Source: Fretibacter rubidus (GTDB lineage Bacteria; Pseudomonadota; Alphaproteobacteria; Caulobacterales; Maricaulaceae). Taken from it: 64,000 nt of DNA. Positions 44,901 to 54,779 of this stretch are shown one piece after another. The stretch covers positions 3,100,001-3,164,000 of the forward strand of contig NZ_CP163423.1 of assembly GCF_041429785.1 (NCBI RefSeq). The letters are read 5' to 3'. The translations under genes and the position numbers were made by a program. Every line of letters begins with the position of its first letter. The first letter of the stretch is position 1. The notes under the pieces were generated by a model. That model saw only the letters and a list, made by a program, of their open reading frames with translations. It had not been told where the DNA came from and did not search any database.

Positions 44901-46112
44901 TTAATTCATCCAGATAAGCGGGTGACGTAATGGAAAGTTTCGCCTGACTTCATAGACATCACTATCTGCAGCGAGGTCTTTTACCGTATCGTAATAAGAA
45001 CAATCCCCTAGGGCATCACCAGCTAGTAAAAGCGACGGGTGGCGCACAGGCCAATCATCCCAATACATGACATCTTGGGCATAAGGCCATAATGATTTAT
45101 CGGTGACATAGGGTTTTATAAAATCAAGGCCAAGGGACATGCTCTGCCCATTTGCTGCGCTATAGCGCCATAAATCATCTTCACGCGTCGAGGTAATCTG
45201 TGCAATGCCCGCCATAAGGTCGATCACAAACAGAGAATAGCCATAAGGTTTAGTCCGAGATAATTCTTTTGGAAATCCACCATTGGCATCCATCATATCA
45301 GCCAGATAGATATTTTTAAATTTATCTTTCACCAAAGCAGTGAGCGCCGCATCGCCCGTCAAATCAGCAAAAGCCGCAATTTGTAAAGACCATGCGATTG
45401 AATGATTGTTATGCCAATCACGTTCTTTGATGCCGTTAGGGTGGGTATTCATCCATTTTGCATAAATGTTGAACCAGGTCTTTATCGAGGCATAATCAGC
45501 AGGGTCTATCGCGCCTGCATCGCCCAACAATTTGGCCGCGCGCGCAACCTCGACTAAATGCAACGTATCAATAATGCCTATGGACCGCCCTGTATGACGG
45601 CCCTTAATCGCTTGTGCGTATAAAAGATTTGGGTTCATGCGCGTATCCGCATCAATAAACCAGGCCTTTAAATGTGTTGCGGCGGCGTCAGCATATTTTT
45701 GCTGGCCCGTGATAAGATAGGCTGATGCAAGGCTTCCTTGAATATCAGAGAACCTAATCATAGACAGGCGGTGTTTTGTGAAGTTATCAGGATTTGTTTG
45801 TCCATCGCGACGCTCATAAGGCGCATCAGGGTCACCGGGAACAGGCCACCAATAATCGCCTTCAGAATAAAAGTCATTGGGCCCGCCCGCGCTGCGGCTT
45901 GCGGTATTGGCAGTAACCGTTTCGACTTTAGCGGTCAGATAGTCATTGGCTTTGTTCAGGACGCGATCTGTGTCATCTGCGGTAATCGCACCAACATCAC
46001 AGGGTGTATTTGATGCAGCCTGCCCTGTAGTTTGGGACGCATTATCTGAGCAGGCGGATATAATTAAAGCTGTACTCAGCCCTATAAACTTAATGCCCGC
46101 TTTCAGCTTCAC
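44901..46112 (-). CDS. Alginate-lyase-family lipoprotein
   Basis: 403 residues from a GTG at 46112, five bases after the stop of the sugar dehydrogenase gene; the frame reaches 46319 but that part overlaps it. Lipobox ISAC. The mature part is an (alpha/alpha) toroid of the PL5/alginate lyase type: MIRFSDIQGSLASAYLITG, LLYAQAIKGRHTGRSIGIIDT and the conserved RDWHNNHSIAWSLQ, with likely catalytic His and Asn. It should depolymerise an acidic polysaccharide, perhaps alginate from brown algae. The pair with a PQQ-type dehydrogenase is unusual for a lyase locus; there is no TonB receptor next to it. Confidence 0.85.
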   Translation of the reverse strand: MKLKAGIKFIGLSTALIISACSDNASQTTGQAASNTPCDVGAITADDTDRVLNKANDYLTAKVETVTANTASRSAGGPNDFYSEGDYWWPVPGDPDAPYERRDGQTNPDNFTKHRLSMIRFSDIQGSLASAYLITGQQKYADAAATHLKAWFIDADTRMNPNLLYAQAIKGRHTGRSIGIIDTLHLVEVARAAKLLGDAGAIDPADYASIKTWFNIYAKWMNTHPNGIKERDWHNNHSIAWSLQIAAFADLTGDAALTALVKDKFKNIYLADMMDANGGFPKELSRTKPYGYSLFVIDLMAGIAQITSTREDDLWRYSAANGQSMSLGLDFIKPYVTDKSLWPYAQDVMYWDDWPVRHPSLLLAGDALGDCSYYDTVKDLAADSDVYEVRRNFPLRHPLIWMN

Positions 46113-46116
46113 AGAA

Positions 46117-47244
46117 TTAATCTTGCTTGGGAATAAAACGAATAAGGCGACTGTTTTCGCCGTCGACGGCCAAAACAAGTAACGAGCCATCAAAGCCCAT
46201 ATCAACGTCGCGAACGCGGGCGTTAATGTCAGAGAACAATATTTCTTCACCCACAGCGATCCCATTTTCAAGGTCAACGCGCCGCACATCACGCGAGGCC
46301 AGACCACCGACAATTGCATCTCCGTTCCACTCTGGAAACATCCCGCCGCGGTAAATAATCAGGCCAGACGGGGCAATGGACGGTGTCCAAACATGCACAG
46401 GGTCAGACATGCCAGCCATTTCTGTTAATGGCGTAATTTTGGCCCCATTGTAATCAAGTCCTTGGGAGACAATCGGCCAGCCATAATTTTCACCAGGCTG
46501 TATCAAATTTAACTCATCACCCCCGCGCGGCCCGTGCTCATGCGCCCAGAGGCTATTGGTGAAAGGATCAAAAAATAGGCCCTGCACGTTACGGTGACCA
46601 ATGGAAATATTTTGTGCCGGCGGGGGCGTGAGTTTTATAATTTTACCCAGATCAGATTTGCGGTCTTGCGCAGCCTCGCGAAACTCAAAGCCGTCACCCG
46701 TGGACAGTGCCACTGTCCCGCCCGGAAGAAAAGACAGGCTGCCCCCAAAATGCGCCGCGCCAGATTTCAAAGGGTTTGCTGTGAAAACCTCTGAGATATT
46801 GATAAGTTTATCCCCGTCCAGTTCGGCCACTATTACCGCCGTCCCGTTTTCAGCTTCCGTGCCGCGCGCATAGGATAAATATAGAAAATTATTTTCTACG
46901 AAATCTGCGCTCAACATAACATCAAAAAGACCGGCTTGGTTGCCGACAAATATATCGTCAGGCAGCCCTGTTATGATTGTGGTCTCACCATTTTGAACGC
47001 GCTTTAACGTTCCGCCGCGCTCTGTTATTAAAAAACCACCACCAGGTAAGCTCGCAAAAGCCCAAGGCGTATCCAAGCCTTCGGCCAATACTTCAGTGGT
47101 GTAATCCGCCATCATAGTTTTGGGTAGATCCGGTGCGACTTGTTTTTCCATACACGCGCTCAGGCCGACAGCACTCACTATGGCCAAAGTTGTAACAGAT
47201 TTTAAAAGACCGCAGTAATATGAATGGAATTTAAAAAATGACAC
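46117..47244 (-). CDS. PQQ-type soluble sugar dehydrogenase, lipoprotein
   Basis: 375 residues from a GTG at 47244, with AAGGA seven bases before; an ATG at 47295 is in frame but without such a site. A signal with lipobox LSAC. The beta-propeller begins AEGLDTPWAFASLPGGGFLITERGG, continues with GGSLSFLPGGTVALSTGDG, LWAHEHGPRGGDELNLIQPGENYGWP and VWTPSIAPSGLIIY, the pattern of the aldose sugar dehydrogenase (YliI) family with a PQQ cofactor. It oxidises sugars and passes electrons on at the periplasmic face. In operon with the lyase-family gene, so it may act on the released sugars. Confidence 0.9.
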   Translation of the reverse strand: MSFFKFHSYYCGLLKSVTTLAIVSAVGLSACMEKQVAPDLPKTMMADYTTEVLAEGLDTPWAFASLPGGGFLITERGGTLKRVQNGETTIITGLPDDIFVGNQAGLFDVMLSADFVENNFLYLSYARGTEAENGTAVIVAELDGDKLINISEVFTANPLKSGAAHFGGSLSFLPGGTVALSTGDGFEFREAAQDRKSDLGKIIKLTPPPAQNISIGHRNVQGLFFDPFTNSLWAHEHGPRGGDELNLIQPGENYGWPIVSQGLDYNGAKITPLTEMAGMSDPVHVWTPSIAPSGLIIYRGGMFPEWNGDAIVGGLASRDVRRVDLENGIAVGEEILFSDINARVRDVDMGFDGSLLVLAVDGENSRLIRFIPKQD

Positions 47245-47351
47245 GACATTATCCTTCAAAGGCAGACTCGGGTGTTTATATTTAGCATTGCGCATAATTG
47301 CTATCAGGCGCTATCATAATACGAAATTACATATAATAGAGTTATAGACAG

Positions 47352-47810
47352 ATGGCAGTTTTTATAAAGCGCGTTTTTGCCCTTCTCATCGCCAGTCTTG
47401 TGGCTGGTGTGACGGGATCTGTCATGTCGACCTATCGTACCATTATAGATTTGCGTGAAATCGGTGCGCCTATATCGGACGGTACCGCCTTTTCAACAGC
47501 TCTATATGACGTACAGCACTTCGCACCACTTTATACGCTATTTATCACCATCGCTTTTTTAATCGCATTCTTGGTTTCTGGCGGGCTTTACAAAACAATA
47601 AAATTTGGGCGCCCGATTATTTATATCGTCGCTGGCGCTACCGCAATTTTAGTAATGTTATATCTTATGAAACAGGTGTTTTTTGGCGTTCCGATTGTCG
47701 CGGGCGCAAGGGATAATACTGGACTGCTACTGCAAATACTCGCTGGTGGATTAGGCGGGCTGTGTTTTGCGCTCTTGTCTAAAACAAAAGCGCAAAGCAA
47801 AATTGCTTAG
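47352..47810 (+). CDS. Small membrane protein of unknown function
   Basis: 152 residues with four membrane helices (residues about 7-25, 55-78, 86-106, 127-144). No motif recognised. The gene stands alone, divergent from the sugar dehydrogenase gene and convergent with rho, whose stop it overlaps by 4 bp. Confidence 0.7.
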
Positions 47811-49111
47811 GTATTCATACTATCAAAGAAATCTGCATTGTTTTTAGTATCTTTTAATTTCGATATCAGAAATTCAATCGCGTCCATTGTGCCCATCGGG
47901 TTTAAGATACGGCGCAGGACATAGGTCTTTTGCAAATCAACAGGATTAATCAAAAGCTCTTCTTTTCGTGTCCCTGATTTGGTGACATCAATCGCGGGGA
48001 AAACGCGTTTATCGGCAACCTTACGGTCAAGTACAATCTCACTATTGCCCGTACCTTTGAACTCTTCGAAAATAACTTCGTCCATACGAGATCCCGTATC
48101 AATCAAGGCTGTCGCAATAATTGTAAGTGATCCACCTTCTTCGATATTCCGGGCGGCACCAAAGAAACGCTTTGGACGTTGCAGCGCATTCGCATCCACA
48201 CCACCTGTTAAAACCTTACCAGAGCTTGGAACGACAGTGTTATAAGCTCGGCCAAGACGCGTGATACTATCGAGCAAAATGACAACATCTTTACCGTGTT
48301 CAGTCAGACGCTTTGCTTTTTGAATGACCATTTCCGCCACTTGTACGTGACGGGTCGCAGGTTCATCAAAAGTAGAACTGACGACCTCCCCTTTAACGCT
48401 GCGCTGCATGTCGGTCACCTCTTCGGGGCGTTCATCAATGAGCAAGACAATAACGTAACACTCAGGGTGATTGGCCTCGATAGAGTGCGCAATGTTTTGC
48501 AGCAAGACAGTTTTACCTGTACGCGGCGGCGCAACGATCAAAGCCCGCTGACCTTTACCGAGCGGGGAGACAATATCAATGATCCGGCCTGAACGGTCTT
48601 TGCGTGTTGGGTCATCAATTTCCATTTTCATCCGTTCATCAGGATAAAGTGGGGTTAAATTATCAAAATGCGCTTTATTACGGGCGCGCTCTGGCGTTTC
48701 AAAATTAAGGGAATCAACTGTAGTGAGCGCAAAATAACGCTCCGCGTCACGGGGGCTACGAATTTCACCCGACACAGTATCGCCTGTCCGCAGGCCGTAT
48801 TTGCGAATTTGTTTTGGCGTAACATAGATATCATCAGGACCAGGTAGATAGTTCGCCTCTGGCGCGCGCAAGAACCCAAATCCGTCTTGTAAAACCTCTA
48901 GCACGCCAGATCCGTTAATTTGAATATCATCCTCAGCGAGGTCTTTTAGGACAGAGAAGAAAATCTCTTGCTTACGCATAGACCCTGCATTTTCAATCCC
49001 AACAGCTTCGGCAAAAGCAATCAATTCAGCGGGTTTTTTAACCTTTAAGTCTTCAAGGCTTATAGATTTAAGCGTTTCAAGGTCAGCAATGGTCACGTCT
49101 TGTGCGGGCAT
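47807..49111 (-). CDS. rho: Transcription termination factor Rho
   Basis: 434 residues. An N-terminal helical domain, then the cold-shock-like RNA-binding domain ([33 protein letters not shown]), then the ATPase: Walker [10 protein letters not shown] at about 190-200, [12 protein letters not shown] as the Walker-B-type block, and the Q/R loop region. Hexameric helicase that ends transcription. Position near the origin, oriented away from it, is common in alphaproteobacteria. Confidence 0.97.
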
Positions 49112-49241: not shown

Positions 49242-49685
49242 TTAAAAAGGTTTCACAATAGCCATAACGACGATGATAATCGTTGCCACAGCGGGTATTT
49301 CGTTAATCATGCGAAAGAACTTTTCAGATTTTGGGCGCTGGCCCGCTTTGAACCGTTTTCGCATTTTGGATAAGAATCCATGATATCCCATCAAAAAGAA
49401 TACCAAAACCAGCTTAATCCAGAGCCAAGCTGAATTTTTTAAGGTCTCTATATTATAACCGATTAAAACAAGACCCAGTAAAAACGCCACAATCATCGCA
49501 GGGTTCATGATAATGCGCATGAGTTTTTCTGCGGCCTCAATCATCTTGGCTTCTAATTCCCCACCGGGTTTAGACGCACTGTGATACACATATAGGCGCG
49601 GCAAATATAAGAGTCCTGCCATCCAAAAAATAACAGCACACAAATGAGCCGCTTTTACCCAAAGATAAAGATCAAACATAATCAC
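49242..49685 (-). CDS. hemJ: HemJ-type protoporphyrinogen oxidase
   Basis: 147 residues with four membrane helices. WVKAAHLCAVIFWMAGLLYLPRLYVYH has the conserved His and the haem-binding context of HemJ, and WIKLVLVFFLMGYHG the second conserved His region. It oxidises protoporphyrinogen IX to protoporphyrin IX in haem synthesis. The start overlaps the end of hemE; an ATG at 49679 would shorten the overlap. Two haem genes together support the call. Confidence 0.92.
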   Translation of the reverse strand: MIMFDLYLWVKAAHLCAVIFWMAGLLYLPRLYVYHSASKPGGELEAKMIEAAEKLMRIIMNPAMIVAFLLGLVLIGYNIETLKNSAWLWIKLVLVFFLMGYHGFLSKMRKRFKAGQRPKSEKFFRMINEIPAVATIIIVVMAIVKPF

Positions 49686-50724
49686 CCTCGCCTGTTCGCA
49701 AATGATTTATAACGGCATGAACATTATCAATTTTAACATCTGGTGATACGCCGTGGCCAAGATTGAAAATATAGGGTCCGCCAGCCCGCTTTGCATCATT
49801 TAGAACTGCCTGAACGGCTCGCCGCAAAACGTCGCCGCCGATGCGTAAGGCGAGTGGGTCGAGATTGCCTTGTATGGCTCGGTCCTGGCCAACATATTTA
49901 CGTAGTTCCGTGAGCGGCGTGTCAGTACCAGCAGCGACGCCTTGTGTTTTTATCGTGTCACAATAATGCGTAAGATTTAGGCCCGCCGCACGCGGAAACC
50001 CAATGATAGGAATATCAATCCCGGCATCACGCACACGGTTAATCATAATTTGTGTTGGCTTCACCACAAGCTTATCAAAAAGTGGTGCTGAAAGACCTTG
50101 CGCCCAGCTTTCAAATATTTTCAGCGCGTCAGCGCCTGCTTTTGCTTGACCAATGAGATAATCAGCAGAGCTGACCGCAATCGCATTTAATAAATCATCC
50201 ATGGCTTGAGGGTGTTCATAAGCAAACCGTTTAGCGACTTCCTTATCGGGAGTCCCGCGACCCTCGAGCATATAGGTTGCTACTGTCCAAGCCCCACCAC
50301 AAAAGCCGATAAGCGCTTTATCATCAGACAATTCACCACGTACGCGTGATACTGTTTCCCAAACGGAACTTATCCGTTCAGCAGCGCCGTCAATCGTTAA
50401 GCGCTTTACATCATCAACGCTCATAGGATCAAGGATAGGGCCAACGCCTTTTTCAAAGCGCACATCCCGTCCAAGACCAATCGGTATTAAAAGAATATCT
50501 GCAAAGAGTATCGCCGCATCCATATCATAGCGTTCAATGGGTTGGAGCGTTACACGTGCTGCTTTTTCAGGTGTAAAACAAAAATCAATAAACCCAGCAG
50601 TAGAGGCACGCACAGCTTTATATTCAGCAAGGTGTCGCCCTGCTTGACGCATCATCCATATAGGTGCGGGTGTTATGGTTTCACCGGATAGAACGCGAAG
50701 GATTTTAGGTGTTGCGTTTGTCAT
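49672..50724 (-). CDS. hemE: Uroporphyrinogen decarboxylase
   Basis: 350 residues from the ATG at 50724; a TTG 11 codons earlier is unlikely. PIWMMRQAGRHLAEYK is the family signature at the N-terminus, and GFCGGAWTVATYMLEGRG and LGHGVSPDVKIDNV follow. It removes four carboxyl groups from uroporphyrinogen III to give coproporphyrinogen III. It is the last gene on the left of the predicted replication origin and is transcribed away from it, as in Caulobacter. Confidence 0.97.
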   Translation of the reverse strand: MTNATPKILRVLSGETITPAPIWMMRQAGRHLAEYKAVRASTAGFIDFCFTPEKAARVTLQPIERYDMDAAILFADILLIPIGLGRDVRFEKGVGPILDPMSVDDVKRLTIDGAAERISSVWETVSRVRGELSDDKALIGFCGGAWTVATYMLEGRGTPDKEVAKRFAYEHPQAMDDLLNAIAVSSADYLIGQAKAGADALKIFESWAQGLSAPLFDKLVVKPTQIMINRVRDAGIDIPIIGFPRAAGLNLTHYCDTIKTQGVAAGTDTPLTELRKYVGQDRAIQGNLDPLALRIGGDVLRRAVQAVLNDAKRAGGPYIFNLGHGVSPDVKIDNVHAVINHLRTGEGDYV

Positions 50725-50834
50725 AAAACTCACAGGTCTAAGCCTCTTAAAACTCAAAAAATATTTTAAATAAAAGAGTGATAGTAATAGGGTGTGTGGC
50801 TATGTGAACAATCTTAAGACTTTGTAAAGACTGT

Positions 50835-50849
50835 TTAATAATATGTTAA
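50835..50849. promoter_or_regulatory. CtrA-type box within the origin
   Basis: TTAA (50835-50838), seven bases, TTAA (50846-50849). In Caulobacter, CtrA bound at such sites in Cori blocks initiation in swarmer cells. A looser pair at 51015-51018 and 51028-51031 has nine bases between and is less convincing. Confidence 0.6.
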
Positions 50850-50944
50850 AAAATGCGTTTATCCTTGTTTTTGGATAAGTGCAAATTGTTATCCTGACTA
50901 TGGGGATAAATATGATTTTAATAGCTATCTATGAACTGCGGAGC

Positions 50945-50953
50945 TGTGGATAA
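50945..50953 (-). promoter_or_regulatory. Perfect DnaA box
   Basis: TGTGGATAA, the reverse complement of the consensus TTATCCACA, near the centre of the gap. The other boxes listed with the origin carry one to three changes. Confidence 0.75.
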
Positions 50954-51131
50954 TATTGTGAGTATTATTGAACTTAATTTTATCCCCAATCTTACTCTTT
51001 TGCTCCTGTGTAAATTAACATCTGTGCTTAAACCTTCTGACGGTTGTATGTTTATGGGCATTGACCACAACAAGTTAAGGTGAGCGCCCTTATATGTGGA
51101 CAAATCATGTGAAGCTGGCATAACTTTAACT

Positions 51132-51974
51132 ATGCCGCGAAATCCAAATATATCGATTTATTTTCATGTCCATCTTGTCTCTGATTCAACAGGTGAAACG
51201 CTTGTTGGGACAATGAAAGCAACCACAGCGCAGTTTCGCAATGCCACAGCGCTAGAGCATTTACACTCGCTGGTGCGTTCAGAAGAACAAATGGAGCGCA
51301 CACTAAACGATATTGAAAATCGCCCTGGTGTTGTCCTTTACACGCTTGTTAATCCTGATCGCCGGCGCATGCTCGAAGAACGTTGCGCTATGTTAAATAT
51401 TCCTGCCGTGTCTATTTTAGATCCGTCTTTGGCTATGTTGGGACGCTACCTTGGTGCGCCTGTGCAACAGGCCGTCGCGGCGCAACACAACCTTGATAGC
51501 GATTATTATGACCGTATCGCAGCACTAGATTTTGCGATGGTTCATGATGATGGTCAAAATCAAATGGGGCTTAAAGATGCTGATATTATTCTCTTAGGTG
51601 TCAGTCGGACATCTAAAACACCGACAAGTATTTATCTAGCCAATCGGGGGTATAAGACCGGTAACATACCCCTTGTCCCGAATGTCCCGTGGCCTAAACA
51701 TATCGAGAGTTATAAAACCCCTTTTATTGTTGGTTTATTCGCGTCACCATCCCGTATCGTACAAATTCGCCAACAGCGTCTTGAAAATCTTCAGGCAGGC
51801 ACGTCAGATTATACGGATGAGCAGAGCGTGCGGGACGAGATGCAAAAAGCCAAACGCATGTTTATAAAAATGGGCTATCCTGTTGTTGACGTCACAAGGC
51901 GTTCCATCGAAGAGACGGCCGCGCAAATTATCAACTTGTACCAAGATTATAAAGACAATCAAAATGGCGCATAA
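51132..51974 (+). CDS. DUF299 bifunctional kinase/phosphorylase regulating PPDK or PEP synthase
   Basis: 280 residues from the ATG at 51132. HLVSDSTGETLVGTMKA at the N-terminus and the P-loop-like GVSRTSKT at 156-163 with PTSIYLANRGYKTGNIPLVP define the family. These proteins phosphorylate with ADP, and dephosphorylate with Pi, a Thr of pyruvate phosphate dikinase or phosphoenolpyruvate synthase. First gene to the right of the predicted origin, as in Caulobacter. Overlaps maf by 11 bp. Confidence 0.93.
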   Translation: MPRNPNISIYFHVHLVSDSTGETLVGTMKATTAQFRNATALEHLHSLVRSEEQMERTLNDIENRPGVVLYTLVNPDRRRMLEERCAMLNIPAVSILDPSLAMLGRYLGAPVQQAVAAQHNLDSDYYDRIAALDFAMVHDDGQNQMGLKDADIILLGVSRTSKTPTSIYLANRGYKTGNIPLVPNVPWPKHIESYKTPFIVGLFASPSRIVQIRQQRLENLQAGTSDYTDEQSVRDEMQKAKRMFIKMGYPVVDVTRRSIEETAAQIINLYQDYKDNQNGA

Positions 51975-52566
51975 CATTCCAATAATATTAGCATCAGGTA
52001 GTCAAATACGAGCGGACATATTGCGGGGTGCAGGCGTTGATTTTAAGGTCGTCACAAAAGCTGTTGATGAAGCGGCTATTAAATCGGCAATGTTATCAGA
52101 AGGCGCAGCGATTGCTGATATCGCTGACGCTTTGGCGGAAGCTAAATCAATGCGTGTATCCCGCTCTACAGAAGGCCTTGTCATTGGGGCAGACCAAATC
52201 ATGGAAATGGACGGGCAGCTTTTTGATAAACCCAAGGATATGGCAGAAGCCCGAGAGCGTCTTTTGCAAATGCGCGGTAAAACACATCACTTGATTGGGG
52301 CTGTCGTTATTTCTGAAAACGCGCGGCCGGTGTGGCGGCACCGAGCAAAAACGGCCTTAAGTGTGCGGGACTTTAGCGAAGCGTTTCTTGATGAATATTT
52401 GGCAGCAGAGGGCGAAACTATCTTAAAAGCTGTAGGCGCTTATAAATTTGAAGGCCGTGGATCTCAGTTATTTTCACATGTCGAGGGCGATTTTTTCTCA
52501 ATTCTTGGCTTATCACTTTTACCTGTGCTCGATTATTTACGGGTTAGAGGCTGCGTTAAAACATGA
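51964..52566 (+). CDS. maf: Maf-family nucleotide pyrophosphatase
   Basis: 200 residues from the ATG at 51964, which overlaps the previous gene by 11 bp. ILASGSQIRADILRGAGVDF is the Maf N-terminal signature, usually ASxSPRR; here Gln-Ile-Arg replaces Pro-Arg. VIGADQIMEMDGQLFDKPKD and VGAYKFEGRGSQLF follow. Maf proteins hydrolyse non-canonical or canonical pyrimidine nucleotides and have been linked to septum formation. Within the DUF299-maf-aroE-coaE-dnaQ operon. Confidence 0.92.
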   Translation: MAHNIPIILASGSQIRADILRGAGVDFKVVTKAVDEAAIKSAMLSEGAAIADIADALAEAKSMRVSRSTEGLVIGADQIMEMDGQLFDKPKDMAEARERLLQMRGKTHHLIGAVVISENARPVWRHRAKTALSVRDFSEAFLDEYLAAEGETILKAVGAYKFEGRGSQLFSHVEGDFFSILGLSLLPVLDYLRVRGCVKT

Positions 52567-53408
52567 CTCGCCCTATCCCCAAATTAGCGGGTGTTTGTGG
52601 CTGGCCTATTCACCATTCATTATCACCGCAAATGCATAGCTTTTGGTTACGCGAAATGGGGCTTGCGGGGGCTTATGTCCATTTTGCCGTTCGCCCAGAT
52701 GAAGCTGTCCGTGCCTTTCAGTCTTTGAAACAAACGTCCATTGCGGGTGTGAATGTGACCCTACCTTTAAAAGAGCTTGCCTATGAGGCGGCTGATATCG
52801 TTACAGATGATGCTAAGAAACTGGGTGTTGCCAATTGTCTCTACAAGCGAGACGGGCAGCTGATTGCTCATAATACGGATTTAGAAGGCTTTGCGACGCC
52901 GCTGATTCGTGCCCTTGGCCCGCGCACGATTGCGAATACCCCCGTGATTATCTACGGCACAGGGGGGGCTTCACGGGCGGTTATAGGTGCGCTATTGTCG
53001 TTAAATTGTCCAGAAATTCGCTTATGCGGTCGCACAGATAATCGCGCAGAAGCCGTGGTTGATGATTTCAATGTGCCAAGCCTTTACGCTGTGCCGTGGG
53101 CGATGCGTCATGACGGCATCGGGGGTGCAGGGGTTATTATTAATGCCAGTGCCGCCGGGATGAAGGGTTATCCTGCGCTGGATGTCGACCTAACGCTCGC
53201 CTCGCCTGGGGCGCTTGTTTATGATTTGATTTACACGCCAGAAGTCACGCCGTTACTCAAAGCCGCAAAAAGCCAAGGCTTACCCAGTATTGGGGGCCTT
53301 GATATGCTCATTGCGCAAGCGCGACCCAGCTTTAAGCTCTTTTTTGGGCAAACCCCACCCGAGACGCTAGACCCCACAGATTTGCTGCGCAAAACTTTAA
53401 ACTCATGA
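52563..53408 (+). CDS. aroE: Shikimate dehydrogenase
   Basis: 281 residues. Shikimate site: HSLSPQMHSFWL and GVNVTLPLKE with the catalytic Lys, then HNTDLEGF with the partner Asp. NADPH domain: GTGGASRAVIGAL. GGLDMLIAQA near the end. Converts 3-dehydroshikimate to shikimate for aromatic amino acids. Overlaps maf and coaE by 4 bp each. Confidence 0.96.
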   Translation: MTRPIPKLAGVCGWPIHHSLSPQMHSFWLREMGLAGAYVHFAVRPDEAVRAFQSLKQTSIAGVNVTLPLKELAYEAADIVTDDAKKLGVANCLYKRDGQLIAHNTDLEGFATPLIRALGPRTIANTPVIIYGTGGASRAVIGALLSLNCPEIRLCGRTDNRAEAVVDDFNVPSLYAVPWAMRHDGIGGAGVIINASAAGMKGYPALDVDLTLASPGALVYDLIYTPEVTPLLKAAKSQGLPSIGGLDMLIAQARPSFKLFFGQTPPETLDPTDLLRKTLNS

Positions 53409-54052
53409 GCCTAGCTGCCGCGGACAAACACAGATCAGCGCCGATAATCATTGGGCTAACGGGATCTATTGGGATGGGGAAAACAACGACGGCTGAAATG
53501 TTTGAGGACCTAGGCTGCCCGGTGTTTGACGCCGATGCCGCTGTACACCGTCTTTATGCCAAAGGCGGGCAGGCTGTGCCGCTGATACGGGCTGTTTTTC
53601 CTGACGCGGTTAACGACGGCGCCGTTGATCGGGCCATATTGGGCAAATATATGCGAGAAGACCCCTTGCAGCTCACTGTGCTAGAGAGCTTTATTCATCC
53701 CATGGTCACGGATATGCGCTCTCAGTTTTTACAGAGAGCTAAAGCATCGGCTGCGGATATTGTTGTTTTTGATATTCCGCTTTTATTTGAAACCGGTGGT
53801 GACGTCCTTGTTGACAAAGTTGTTGTTGTAACGGCCCCTGCGCATGTGCAGCGAGAGCGCGTGATGGCGCGGGAGGGGATGACCGAAGACTTATTTAAGA
53901 TGATATTGTCGCGTCAATTGCCAGATGCGCAGAAACGTATCCGCGCAGATTATACAATTTTTACGCACCGCGGACTAGAAGAAGCGCGCGAACAGGTGCA
54001 GGATATACTCACTGATTTAAGACAGAATGGAATAAATCGTGAACCATCCTGA
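53405..54052 (+). CDS. coaE: Dephospho-CoA kinase
   Basis: 215 residues. P-loop GLTGSIGMGKTTTAEMF, then CPVFDADAAVHRLYA for substrate binding and FDIPLLFETGGD, all family motifs. It phosphorylates the ribose 3'-OH of dephospho-CoA, the last step of CoA synthesis. Overlaps aroE by 4 bp; dnaQ starts within its last codons. Confidence 0.96.
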   Translation: MSLAAADKHRSAPIIIGLTGSIGMGKTTTAEMFEDLGCPVFDADAAVHRLYAKGGQAVPLIRAVFPDAVNDGAVDRAILGKYMREDPLQLTVLESFIHPMVTDMRSQFLQRAKASAADIVVFDIPLLFETGGDVLVDKVVVVTAPAHVQRERVMAREGMTEDLFKMILSRQLPDAQKRIRADYTIFTHRGLEEAREQVQDILTDLRQNGINREPS

Positions 54053-54779
54053 TACTATGAAGCGCGCGGAAAATGGCCACCGGGAAATTGTCTTTGATAC
54101 AGAGACAACGGGGTTTGACGCGCGCGGCGATGACCGCATCACTGAAATCGGCTGTATTGAGATTATTGACTTTTTACCGACGGGTCGCAGCTTTCATGCC
54201 TATTGCAATCCCCAACGCGAAGTCCCTGAGAAAGTTGTCGAGATTACAGGCCTGACAACCGAGTTTTTGCGTGACAAACCTTTGTTTAAATCCGTCGCGC
54301 AGGACTTTATTGACTTTCTGGGCGATAGCCCGCTGATTGCGCATAATGCGGATTTTGATAAAGGCTTTATCAATGCAGAGCTTGATCGCGCGGGCTTTCC
54401 CATGCTGCCAGATAAGCGCTTTATCGATACGCTGCGTATGGCGCGGGCTCAATTTCCAGGGAGTCCCGCGACGCTAGATGCCTTGTGTAAGCGTTTTGAT
54501 ATATCGCTTAGCGCGCGGGATAAGCACGGCGCCATCATTGATAGTGAGCTTTTGGCGGCGGTGTATTTAGAACTAAACGGGGGTCGGGAACGCCGCTTTG
54601 GGTTTAAAGACGCGCGTGCAACTGTAGACTCTGTCGTCGTGCCGATTGCCAGACCAAGACCAACGCCTTTGGCCCCGCTGTCTAGTCAAGATGAGCGCGC
54701 GTCCCACGCAGCGTTTATCAAAAGCCTCGGCGATGACATGGTATGGGAAACGCGTTATTGGTCTAAGAGCCGGGGGTAA
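54039..54779 (+). CDS. dnaQ: DNA polymerase III epsilon subunit (3'-5' exonuclease)
   Basis: 246 residues from a GTG at 54039 that overlaps coaE; an ATG at 54057 is an equally reasonable start and removes six residues. Exonuclease motifs: VFDTETTGFD (ExoI), HNADFDKGFI (ExoII), and KHGAIIDSELL (ExoIII, DEDDh type). Proofreads replication. Position next to coaE near the origin is conserved in alphaproteobacteria. Confidence 0.95.
   Translation: MNHPDTMKRAENGHREIVFDTETTGFDARGDDRITEIGCIEIIDFLPTGRSFHAYCNPQREVPEKVVEITGLTTEFLRDKPLFKSVAQDFIDFLGDSPLIAHNADFDKGFINAELDRAGFPMLPDKRFIDTLRMARAQFPGSPATLDALCKRFDISLSARDKHGAIIDSELLAAVYLELNGGRERRFGFKDARATVDSVVVPIARPRPTPLAPLSSQDERASHAAFIKSLGDDMVWETRYWSKSRG

Follow-up and report, generated by a model that had tools for sequence, protein, structure and literature searches.

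Gene content and DnaA boxes of the hemE/COG1806 gap

The window analyzed here is a 64-kb stretch of the Fretibacter rubidus genome, bases 3,100,001–3,164,000 of a single contig of 3,450,490 bp. It contains a gap at 50725–51131, situated at 3.151 Mb of the chromosome, that is flanked by two divergent genes, hemE on the left and a COG1806 gene on the right (Table 1). The ATG start of hemE was picked by alignment to relatives; the listed open reading frame starts at 50757 with a TTG. The listed frame of the COG1806 gene starts at 51096 with a GTG. The PF03618 family, to which the latter gene belongs, corresponds to COG1806 or DUF299 (PMC1914354). Further to the right, ORFs for maf, aroE, coaE, and a DnaQ-type exonuclease are present, and rho lies on the left flank. 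The first-pass annotation had described a 407-bp AT-rich gap with diverging genes on both sides, and this description holds. The gap measures 407 bp and contains 135 G+C (33.2% GC), and when the 64 kb were scanned with 407-bp windows in steps of 20, the five windows of lowest GC all overlapped it. To the left of rho, ORFs for an alginate lyase (PF05426) and a glucose/sorbosone dehydrogenase (PF07995) occupy 44901–47295 on the same strand with an overlap of ~200 bp; the alginate lyase ORF probably starts further downstream than listed.

Table 1. Features in and around the gap between hemE and COG1806 (window positions)
Feature	Position	Strand	Basis
Predicted oriC, hemE/COG1806 divergent intergenic region	50725–51131		Gene content, box cluster, parS and dif-like positions, skew
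rho (left flank)	47807–49111	-	Pfam search
hemE, uroporphyrinogen decarboxylase	49672–50724	-	PF01208, E 2.1e-96; tblastn to relatives
AT-rich run adjoining trinucleotide array, probable unwinding element	50756–50775	+	Sequence
DnaA-trio-like array GAG.TGA.TAG.TAA.TAG	50776–50790	+	Sequence, family alignment, leave-one-out profile
DnaA-box-like site, TGTGGCTAT on +, 2 mismatches, 4 bp from trios	50795–50803	-	
Second tandem DnaA-box-like site, TGTGAACAA on +, 2 mismatches	50803–50811	-	
Imperfect CtrA-type site TTAA-N7-TAAA	50814–50828	+	Sequence; similar spacing in family alignment by eye
Perfect CtrA-type site TTAA-N7-TTAA	50835–50849	+	Sequence; 0.07 expected per shuffled gap
Inverted pair of box-like sequences, TTATCCTTGTTTTTGGATAA	50859–50878		Right one (50870–50878) 1 mismatch
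Second inverted pair, TTATCCTGACTATGGGGATAA	50889–50909		Right one, TGGGGATAA (50901–50909), 1 mismatch
Perfect DnaA box TGTGGATAA	50945–50953	-	Sequence
DnaA box TTATCCCCA, 1 mismatch	50980–50988	+	Contains hexamer TCCCCA
DnaA box, TGTGGACAA on +, 1 mismatch, adjoins COG1806	51095–51103	-	Sequence and alignment
COG1806/PF03618 gene	51132–51974	+	PF03618, E 7.7e-87; ATG at 51132
maf, aroE, coaE, and dnaQ-type exonuclease ORFs (right flank)	51883–54779	+	Pfam search

The gap combines an AT content above that of the genome with a cluster of DnaA boxes. One box is perfect, four more carry one mismatch (50870, 50901, 50980, and 51095), and another five carry two; an earlier count of six near-matches was roughly right. 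Dinucleotide shuffles of the gap yield on average 0.20 boxes with at most one mismatch, compared with the five observed, and 2.06 boxes with at most two mismatches, compared with the ten observed; neither five nor ten was reached in any of 2000 shuffles. In 895,490 bases sampled, which amount to 26% of the chromosome and include the 64-kb window, the only 407-bp windows with at least four boxes at one mismatch or less are those overlapping the gap, and the next best window has three. The expectation that this gap would rank first in a box scan is therefore borne out within the sampled part. Across the whole chromosome, exact TTATCCACA occurs 29 times compared with 10 times for the backwards-read pattern, and 1045 sites at one mismatch were counted.

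The perfect box, which the first-pass annotation had stressed, is located on the minus strand as reported. Among the aligned gaps it is perfect in Fretibacter rubidus only, however, and is found with at most one mismatch in just three of the 12 other aligned gaps, so it was rejected as the core of the origin. The best-kept standard box is instead the one at 51095, which keeps to two mismatches or fewer in 11 of the 13 gaps aligned and to one or none in seven. The equivalent of the site at 50901–50909 has no more than two mismatches in nine of the 13. The inverted pair of box-like sequences noted earlier is present, but it ends at 50878 rather than 50879, and a second pair lies close by. The hexamer in the box at 50980 is the one given as the Caulobacter W-box consensus (PMC4285127). 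Judged by sequence, one perfect and one imperfect CtrA-type site are found in the gap, and at least one perfect TTAA-N7-TTAA occurs in nine of 13 family gaps. There are no GANTC (CcrM) sites at 50725–51131; most of the 33 gaps listed have between one and eight.

Chromosomal setting and relatives

The dnaA ORF begins at base 1 of the chromosome record (1–1635), ~300 kb from the gap, and the zero of the record is therefore not the predicted origin. No DnaA box, even at two mismatches, is found from -800 to +400 of dnaA, and an origin adjoining this gene was rejected on that ground; a better box cluster at dnaA had been named beforehand as grounds against the gap. The sole pair of perfect boxes less than 100 bp apart on the chromosome (3,193,323/3,193,347) was also rejected as an origin, as it sits inside an ORF (L080 8701–9591, minus strand). 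By eye, this ORF resembles a short-chain dehydrogenase.

Only three mismatch-free parS sites exist in the chromosome. They are located at 3,168,112–3,170,233, 17–19 kb to the right of the gap, and one further parS-like place with a single mismatch is found at 1,127,504. The three sites fall within an mnmE-mnmG-rsmG-parA-parB cluster on the COG1806 side (chromosome positions 3,166,680–3,172,928; rsmG identified by eye). Directly after parB comes an ORF of 1015 codons (L063 9032–12079) whose product matches a matrixin-type peptidase and contains RTX nonapeptide repeats. Searching with a dif-type pattern gave a single mismatch-free match at 1,508,481–1,508,502 and two more places at one mismatch. 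The dif-like site at 1,508,481 is close to a skew switch and probably marks the terminus, as judged from the sequence; replication arms from the gap to this site would be 1.81 and 1.64 Mb long.

A two-arm fit of GC skew over 44 stretches places the switches at ~3.124–3.140 Mb and ~1.41–1.51 Mb (R2 0.52). The first of these is 11–27 kb from the gap, at a coarse resolution and with noisy skew. The minimum of cumulative skew had been expected at about 50.9 kb of the window. Over the last 24 kb a local minimum does fall at 50,657, but the minimum of the entire window is at 15.6 kb, and the stretch at 3.200–3.220 Mb has the wrong sign of skew. Because the skew is weak, it agrees with the gap at a coarse scale only and cannot fix the position of the origin, and a skew minimum placed to the base was discarded for the same reason.

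Among relatives, 59 of 61 genomes in the nearest set carry COG1806, as do 150 of 212 genomes drawn class-wide, with the lowest-scoring matches of the latter draw left out of the flank reading. A divergent hemE lies next to COG1806 in 162 of 178 loci (51 + 29 + 101 less three repeats, the Fretibacter rubidus locus included), and the other 16 have no hemE within the available flank. All 11 relatives searched have their nearest mismatch-free parS at a distance of 4.5–10.5 kb, measured from where the COG1806 match begins. This site lies to the hemE side in 10 relatives, and the nearest parS is on the COG1806 side in genome G009 (6 kb) and in Fretibacter rubidus (17–19 kb); genome G026 has an additional parS on the COG1806 side at 19 kb. 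This suggests that the switch of side in the subclade of Fretibacter rubidus results from an inversion across the origin or from relocation.

The location, the box cluster, the geometry of the parS and dif-like sites, and the arrangement in relatives support the earlier proposal that the gap is the chromosomal oriC, on sequence grounds. It is ordinary in kind, another example of the hemE/COG1806 origin that is established and widespread in Alphaproteobacteria (PMC1914354, PMC4468827), and it anchors the coordinates of the Fretibacter rubidus chromosome. The Cori of Caulobacter crescentus likewise lies between hemE and COG1806 and has a length of 404 bp (PMC1914354), compared with 407 bp here. 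Cori is also richer in AT than its genome and carries DnaA and CtrA sites (PMC1914354, PMC4468827). It differs in having two G-boxes (TGATCCACA) and five CtrA sites (PMC4468827, PMC4285127), whereas the Fretibacter rubidus gap has one perfect Escherichia coli-type box and one perfect CtrA-type site. Furthermore, parS is within 8 kb of Cori but 17–19 kb from the gap, with parAB and parS on the COG1806 side, and the 300-kb distance to dnaA is unlike Caulobacter as well. The origins of Rickettsia, Wolbachia, Ehrlichia, and Anaplasma share the hemE boundary and an AT-rich gap, mostly ~380–460 bp long, and most have DnaA and CtrA sites (PMC1914354). The other boundary gene is COG1806 in Rickettsia, as it is here, and COG1253 in the remaining three genera (PMC1914354).

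A BUS-like module beside hemE

An alignment of 13 family gaps reveals a conserved block at ~50769–50850. From hemE outwards it consists of an AT-rich run, AAAGTAGTGATAGTnGTAG-like trinucleotides, GG or GCC, a TGTGACTATGTGnACAA-like sequence that comprises two tandem box-like sites, and then TTAA elements with CtrA-type spacing. In Fretibacter rubidus the corresponding module spans 50756–50811, with the AT-rich run, the trinucleotide array, GG, and two weak tandem DnaA-box-like sites, and it had not been described in the earlier reading of the gap. A leave-one-out profile of the block scores 41.4 bits at the module, compared with 17.4 bits for the runner-up in 895 kb searched on both strands. 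When the 13-gap profile was applied to 38 held-out gaps, 12 matched with p ≤ 0.05 and 26 were not significant; the 12 include three near-identical Asticcacaulis gaps and two matches at positions 134–135 that are probably something else.

The module resembles the basal unwinding system (BUS) of Bacillus subtilis incC, which also has an AT-rich run, 3'-GAT-5'-type trios, a short spacer, and tandem boxes (PMC8287927), and like incC it has a middle adenine in the last three trios of its array. The published search rule for BUS demands a DnaA box with two mismatches or fewer and, within 16 bp of it, three or more 3'-NAN-5' trios (PMC8287927). In the module, TAG.TAA.TAG at 50782–50790 ends the array, and box-like sites lie 4 and 12 bp beyond it, which agrees with this rule, and our own trio-plus-box score was equaled in none of 60 shuffles of the gap. 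Unlike incC, the module lies beside hemE and far from dnaA, its tandem boxes are weak, the middle base of related arrays is not fixed as adenine, and alphaproteobacterial DnaA mostly lacks Asn-187. The middle adenine is not kept among relatives (A 78, T 65, G 40, C 1 in the 40 clearest class-wide arrays), and for this reason the module is termed BUS-like.

A score for canonical TAG-like trios plus a box was below p = 0.05 in just 11 of 51 gaps (60 mononucleotide shuffles per gap). Its best matches were scattered, and a T-N-G pattern was therefore tried instead, on 75 gaps and then on 152. The 152 gaps are non-redundant; two loci with no hemE in the available flank (L044 and L097), three repeats (L104, L135, and L143), and 10 gaps at 80% identity were dropped. 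An array was defined as five trinucleotides, at least four of them T-N-G with a free middle base, in the 350 bases nearest to hemE. Such arrays occur in 40 of the 152 gaps on the strand that reads away from hemE, compared with 2.3 ± 1.2 in 15 sets of dinucleotide shuffles, and arrays in which all five trinucleotides are T-N-G occur in 19, compared with 0.1. The pattern on the complementary strand is found in no gap (1.1 expected). In the remaining 112 gaps the arrays are weaker, or there is none of the strict T-N-G type.

In the 40 clearest arrays, cytosine makes up a single one of 184 middle bases, which corresponds to 5'-T-D-G-3', while it accounts for 26% (187/720) of the middle bases of T-N-G elsewhere in the same gaps. 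Over the 25 nucleotides upstream of the array, 36 of the 40 have an A+T content of 64% or more (mean 0.76, compared with 0.51 for the gaps as a whole), and in 23 the array is followed within 34 nucleotides by a DnaA box that has two mismatches or fewer. Canonical N-A-N runs are a poor marker, common by chance, since they occur in 140 of the 152 gaps and in almost as many shuffled ones (131.3 ± 3.2). Related patterns are raised over shuffles (GNT 16/3.7, TAN 14/5.3, NAG 12/1.6, ANG 9/2.1, and CNG 8/3.9) and are read as echoes of the T-N-G arrays; TNC is not raised (2 compared with 2.4). An unsupervised motif search on split halves recovered the border between AT run and array from one half and the border between array and box from the other. 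Held-out gaps scored higher on the forward strand in 69 of 76 and 74 of 76 cases, a comparison with the opposite strand to which strand composition contributes.

These features point to a probable BUS-like opening of the DNA beside hemE. DnaA would bind the tandem sites at 50795–50811 as a platform and extend along the plus strand onto the array at 50776–50790, with one protomer per trio. By capturing the bases of the array it would open the AT-rich run at 50756–50775 beside the hemE start, where the helicase would be loaded. The boxes on the right (50870–51103), above all that at 51095, may feed or modulate the assembly of DnaA. The platform is adjoined by the CtrA-type sites (50814–50849), and CtrA bound there could hold DnaA away in cells that do not replicate, as it does in Caulobacter. 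Both tandem sites carry two mismatches, and a box with at most two mismatches is present at the second place in only seven of 13 aligned gaps, which counts against the mechanism. Taken jointly, we hold with high confidence that the gap is oriC, with opening at the hemE-side module as its probable mechanism.

Two other explanations of the gap and the module have to be weighed. The gap could be merely a divergent promoter region with regulatory sites for DnaA and CtrA, with the origin elsewhere, for example beside dnaA. Caulobacter promoters carry DnaA boxes too (PMC4468827), and the skew is noisy. Against this, there are no boxes upstream of dnaA, the box cluster is unique within the 26% of the chromosome sampled, the parS and dif-like sites have the geometry expected of an origin in the gap, and the arrangement is kept in relatives, so that we regard a promoter without an origin as very improbable. 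Alternatively, the gap is oriC, and its hemE-side block is kept as a promoter or leader of hemE and not as an unwinding module. The block lies ~30–90 bp upstream of the hemE start, and its tandem sites are weak. In Caulobacter, transcription of hemE is linked to Cori, which fits the same view. A promoter does not predict, however, that arrays are found behind an AT-rich stretch in 36 of 40 gaps and before a DnaA box in 23, and the confinement of the period-3 arrays to one strand (40 of 152 gaps, with none on the complement) also speaks for an unwinding module. A mere leader of hemE is thus unlikely, and the BUS-like opening is preferred.

DnaA residue 187 and the middle base of the arrays

In the structure of the Bacillus subtilis BUS complex, Asn-187 contacts the amino group of the middle adenine, and Arg-202 and Glu-228 contact the guanine (PMC10721633). 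A and C are the middle bases that serve this DnaA best; in vitro C is about equal to A, and in vivo it works better than either G or T (PMC10721633). We aligned 149 alphaproteobacterial DnaAs, a sample that is not random and contains low-scoring DnaAs picked on purpose. The residue at position 187 is Tyr in 80, Ser in 24, Asn in 19, Phe in 8, and Ala in 5; the rarer residues are Arg (4), Thr (3), His (2), Val (2), Gln (1), and Gly (1). Tyr or Phe is present in 88 of the 149, namely in 86 of 99 outside the order of Fretibacter rubidus and in two of 50 inside it. The DnaA of Fretibacter rubidus itself has an Asn.

A DnaA could be paired with 117 of the 152 gaps. For Asn-type DnaAs (17 gaps) the middle bases of the picked T-N-G trios are A 17, T 5, C 7, and G 1, and for the Tyr/Phe type (67 gaps) they are A 74, G 45, T 63, and C 4. 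The DnaAs with Ser, Ala, Thr, or Gly (26 gaps) go with A 26, C 4, T 12, and G 10, and those with other residues (seven gaps) with G 5, T 6, C 1, and A 4. Bases that carry an amine (A or C) make up 24 of 30 with Asn compared with 78 of 186 with Tyr/Phe (Fisher p 1e-4). Counted by lineage, the five Asn lineages have amine fractions of 0.80, 0.92, 0.67, 0.71, and 0.50, compared with an average of 0.43 over 58 gaps of the Tyr/Phe type (one-sided p 0.006, two-sided p 0.011); nine of the 67 Tyr/Phe gaps were dropped from this test for having fewer than two T-N-G trios, and some Asn lineages amount to two or three trios. A first covariation test, in which 69 blocks were used with the non-aromatic residues pooled and C counted alone, gave p 0.10. 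The relation between residue 187 and the middle base is a correlation only.

It could be explained by a re-coded DnaA-trio in Alphaproteobacteria, 5'-T-D-G-3' (3'-G-D-T-5'), in which A, T, or G is accepted in the middle and C is excluded because Tyr or Phe replaces the adenine-reading Asn-187. With Asn-type DnaAs, which occur in parts of the order of Fretibacter rubidus and in two families outside it, the middle base would tend back towards A or C, and the single-stranded origin code would co-evolve with the pocket residue of DnaA. The block picker is a heuristic that made wrong picks by eye (e.g. L054, L082, L113, and L125), and we therefore consider the re-coded trio evenly balanced between acceptance and doubt. 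The pattern might instead reflect shared ancestry of a few array types and not a code read by residue 187. The Asn-type DnaAs fall into ~5 lineages, the largest of which has one array type (GAG.TCG.TAG), the DnaAs with Ser, Ala, Thr, or Gly use all four bases, the blocks were picked by the heuristic, and the pooled test with C alone reaches no lower than p 0.10. Yet the Asn and Tyr/Phe types remain separated when lineages are counted, and C is almost absent from the 40 clearest arrays, which leaves shared ancestry a serious possibility of somewhat less than even likelihood.

The authors of the BUS study suspect that deviant trios without a middle adenine exist (PMC8287927). The T-D-G arrays are a concrete candidate for such trios across many alphaproteobacterial families, and much of the class may open its origin DNA with a three-letter repeat code that differs slightly from the textbook one. 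In the literature searched, mostly the main text of open papers, the single paper that mentions DnaA-trios together with alphaproteobacteria is titled for Epsilonproteobacteria; origins from Alphaproteobacteria that follow the middle-A rule may be among the 1755 BUS origins predicted in PMC8287927. Searches that require a middle adenine could misplace or miss T-D-G arrays. With the arrays tabulated and the DnaA residue swappable, the recognition of single-stranded origin DNA by DnaA can be put to a direct test outside the Bacillus type.

In the order of Fretibacter rubidus, the DnaA domain shows unusual divergence, with PF00308 E-values from 7e-67 to 3e-27. Residue 187 varies in this order as well (Ser, Asn, Ala, Thr, Tyr, Gln, Gly, and Arg), whereas it is mostly Tyr or Phe in the other orders.
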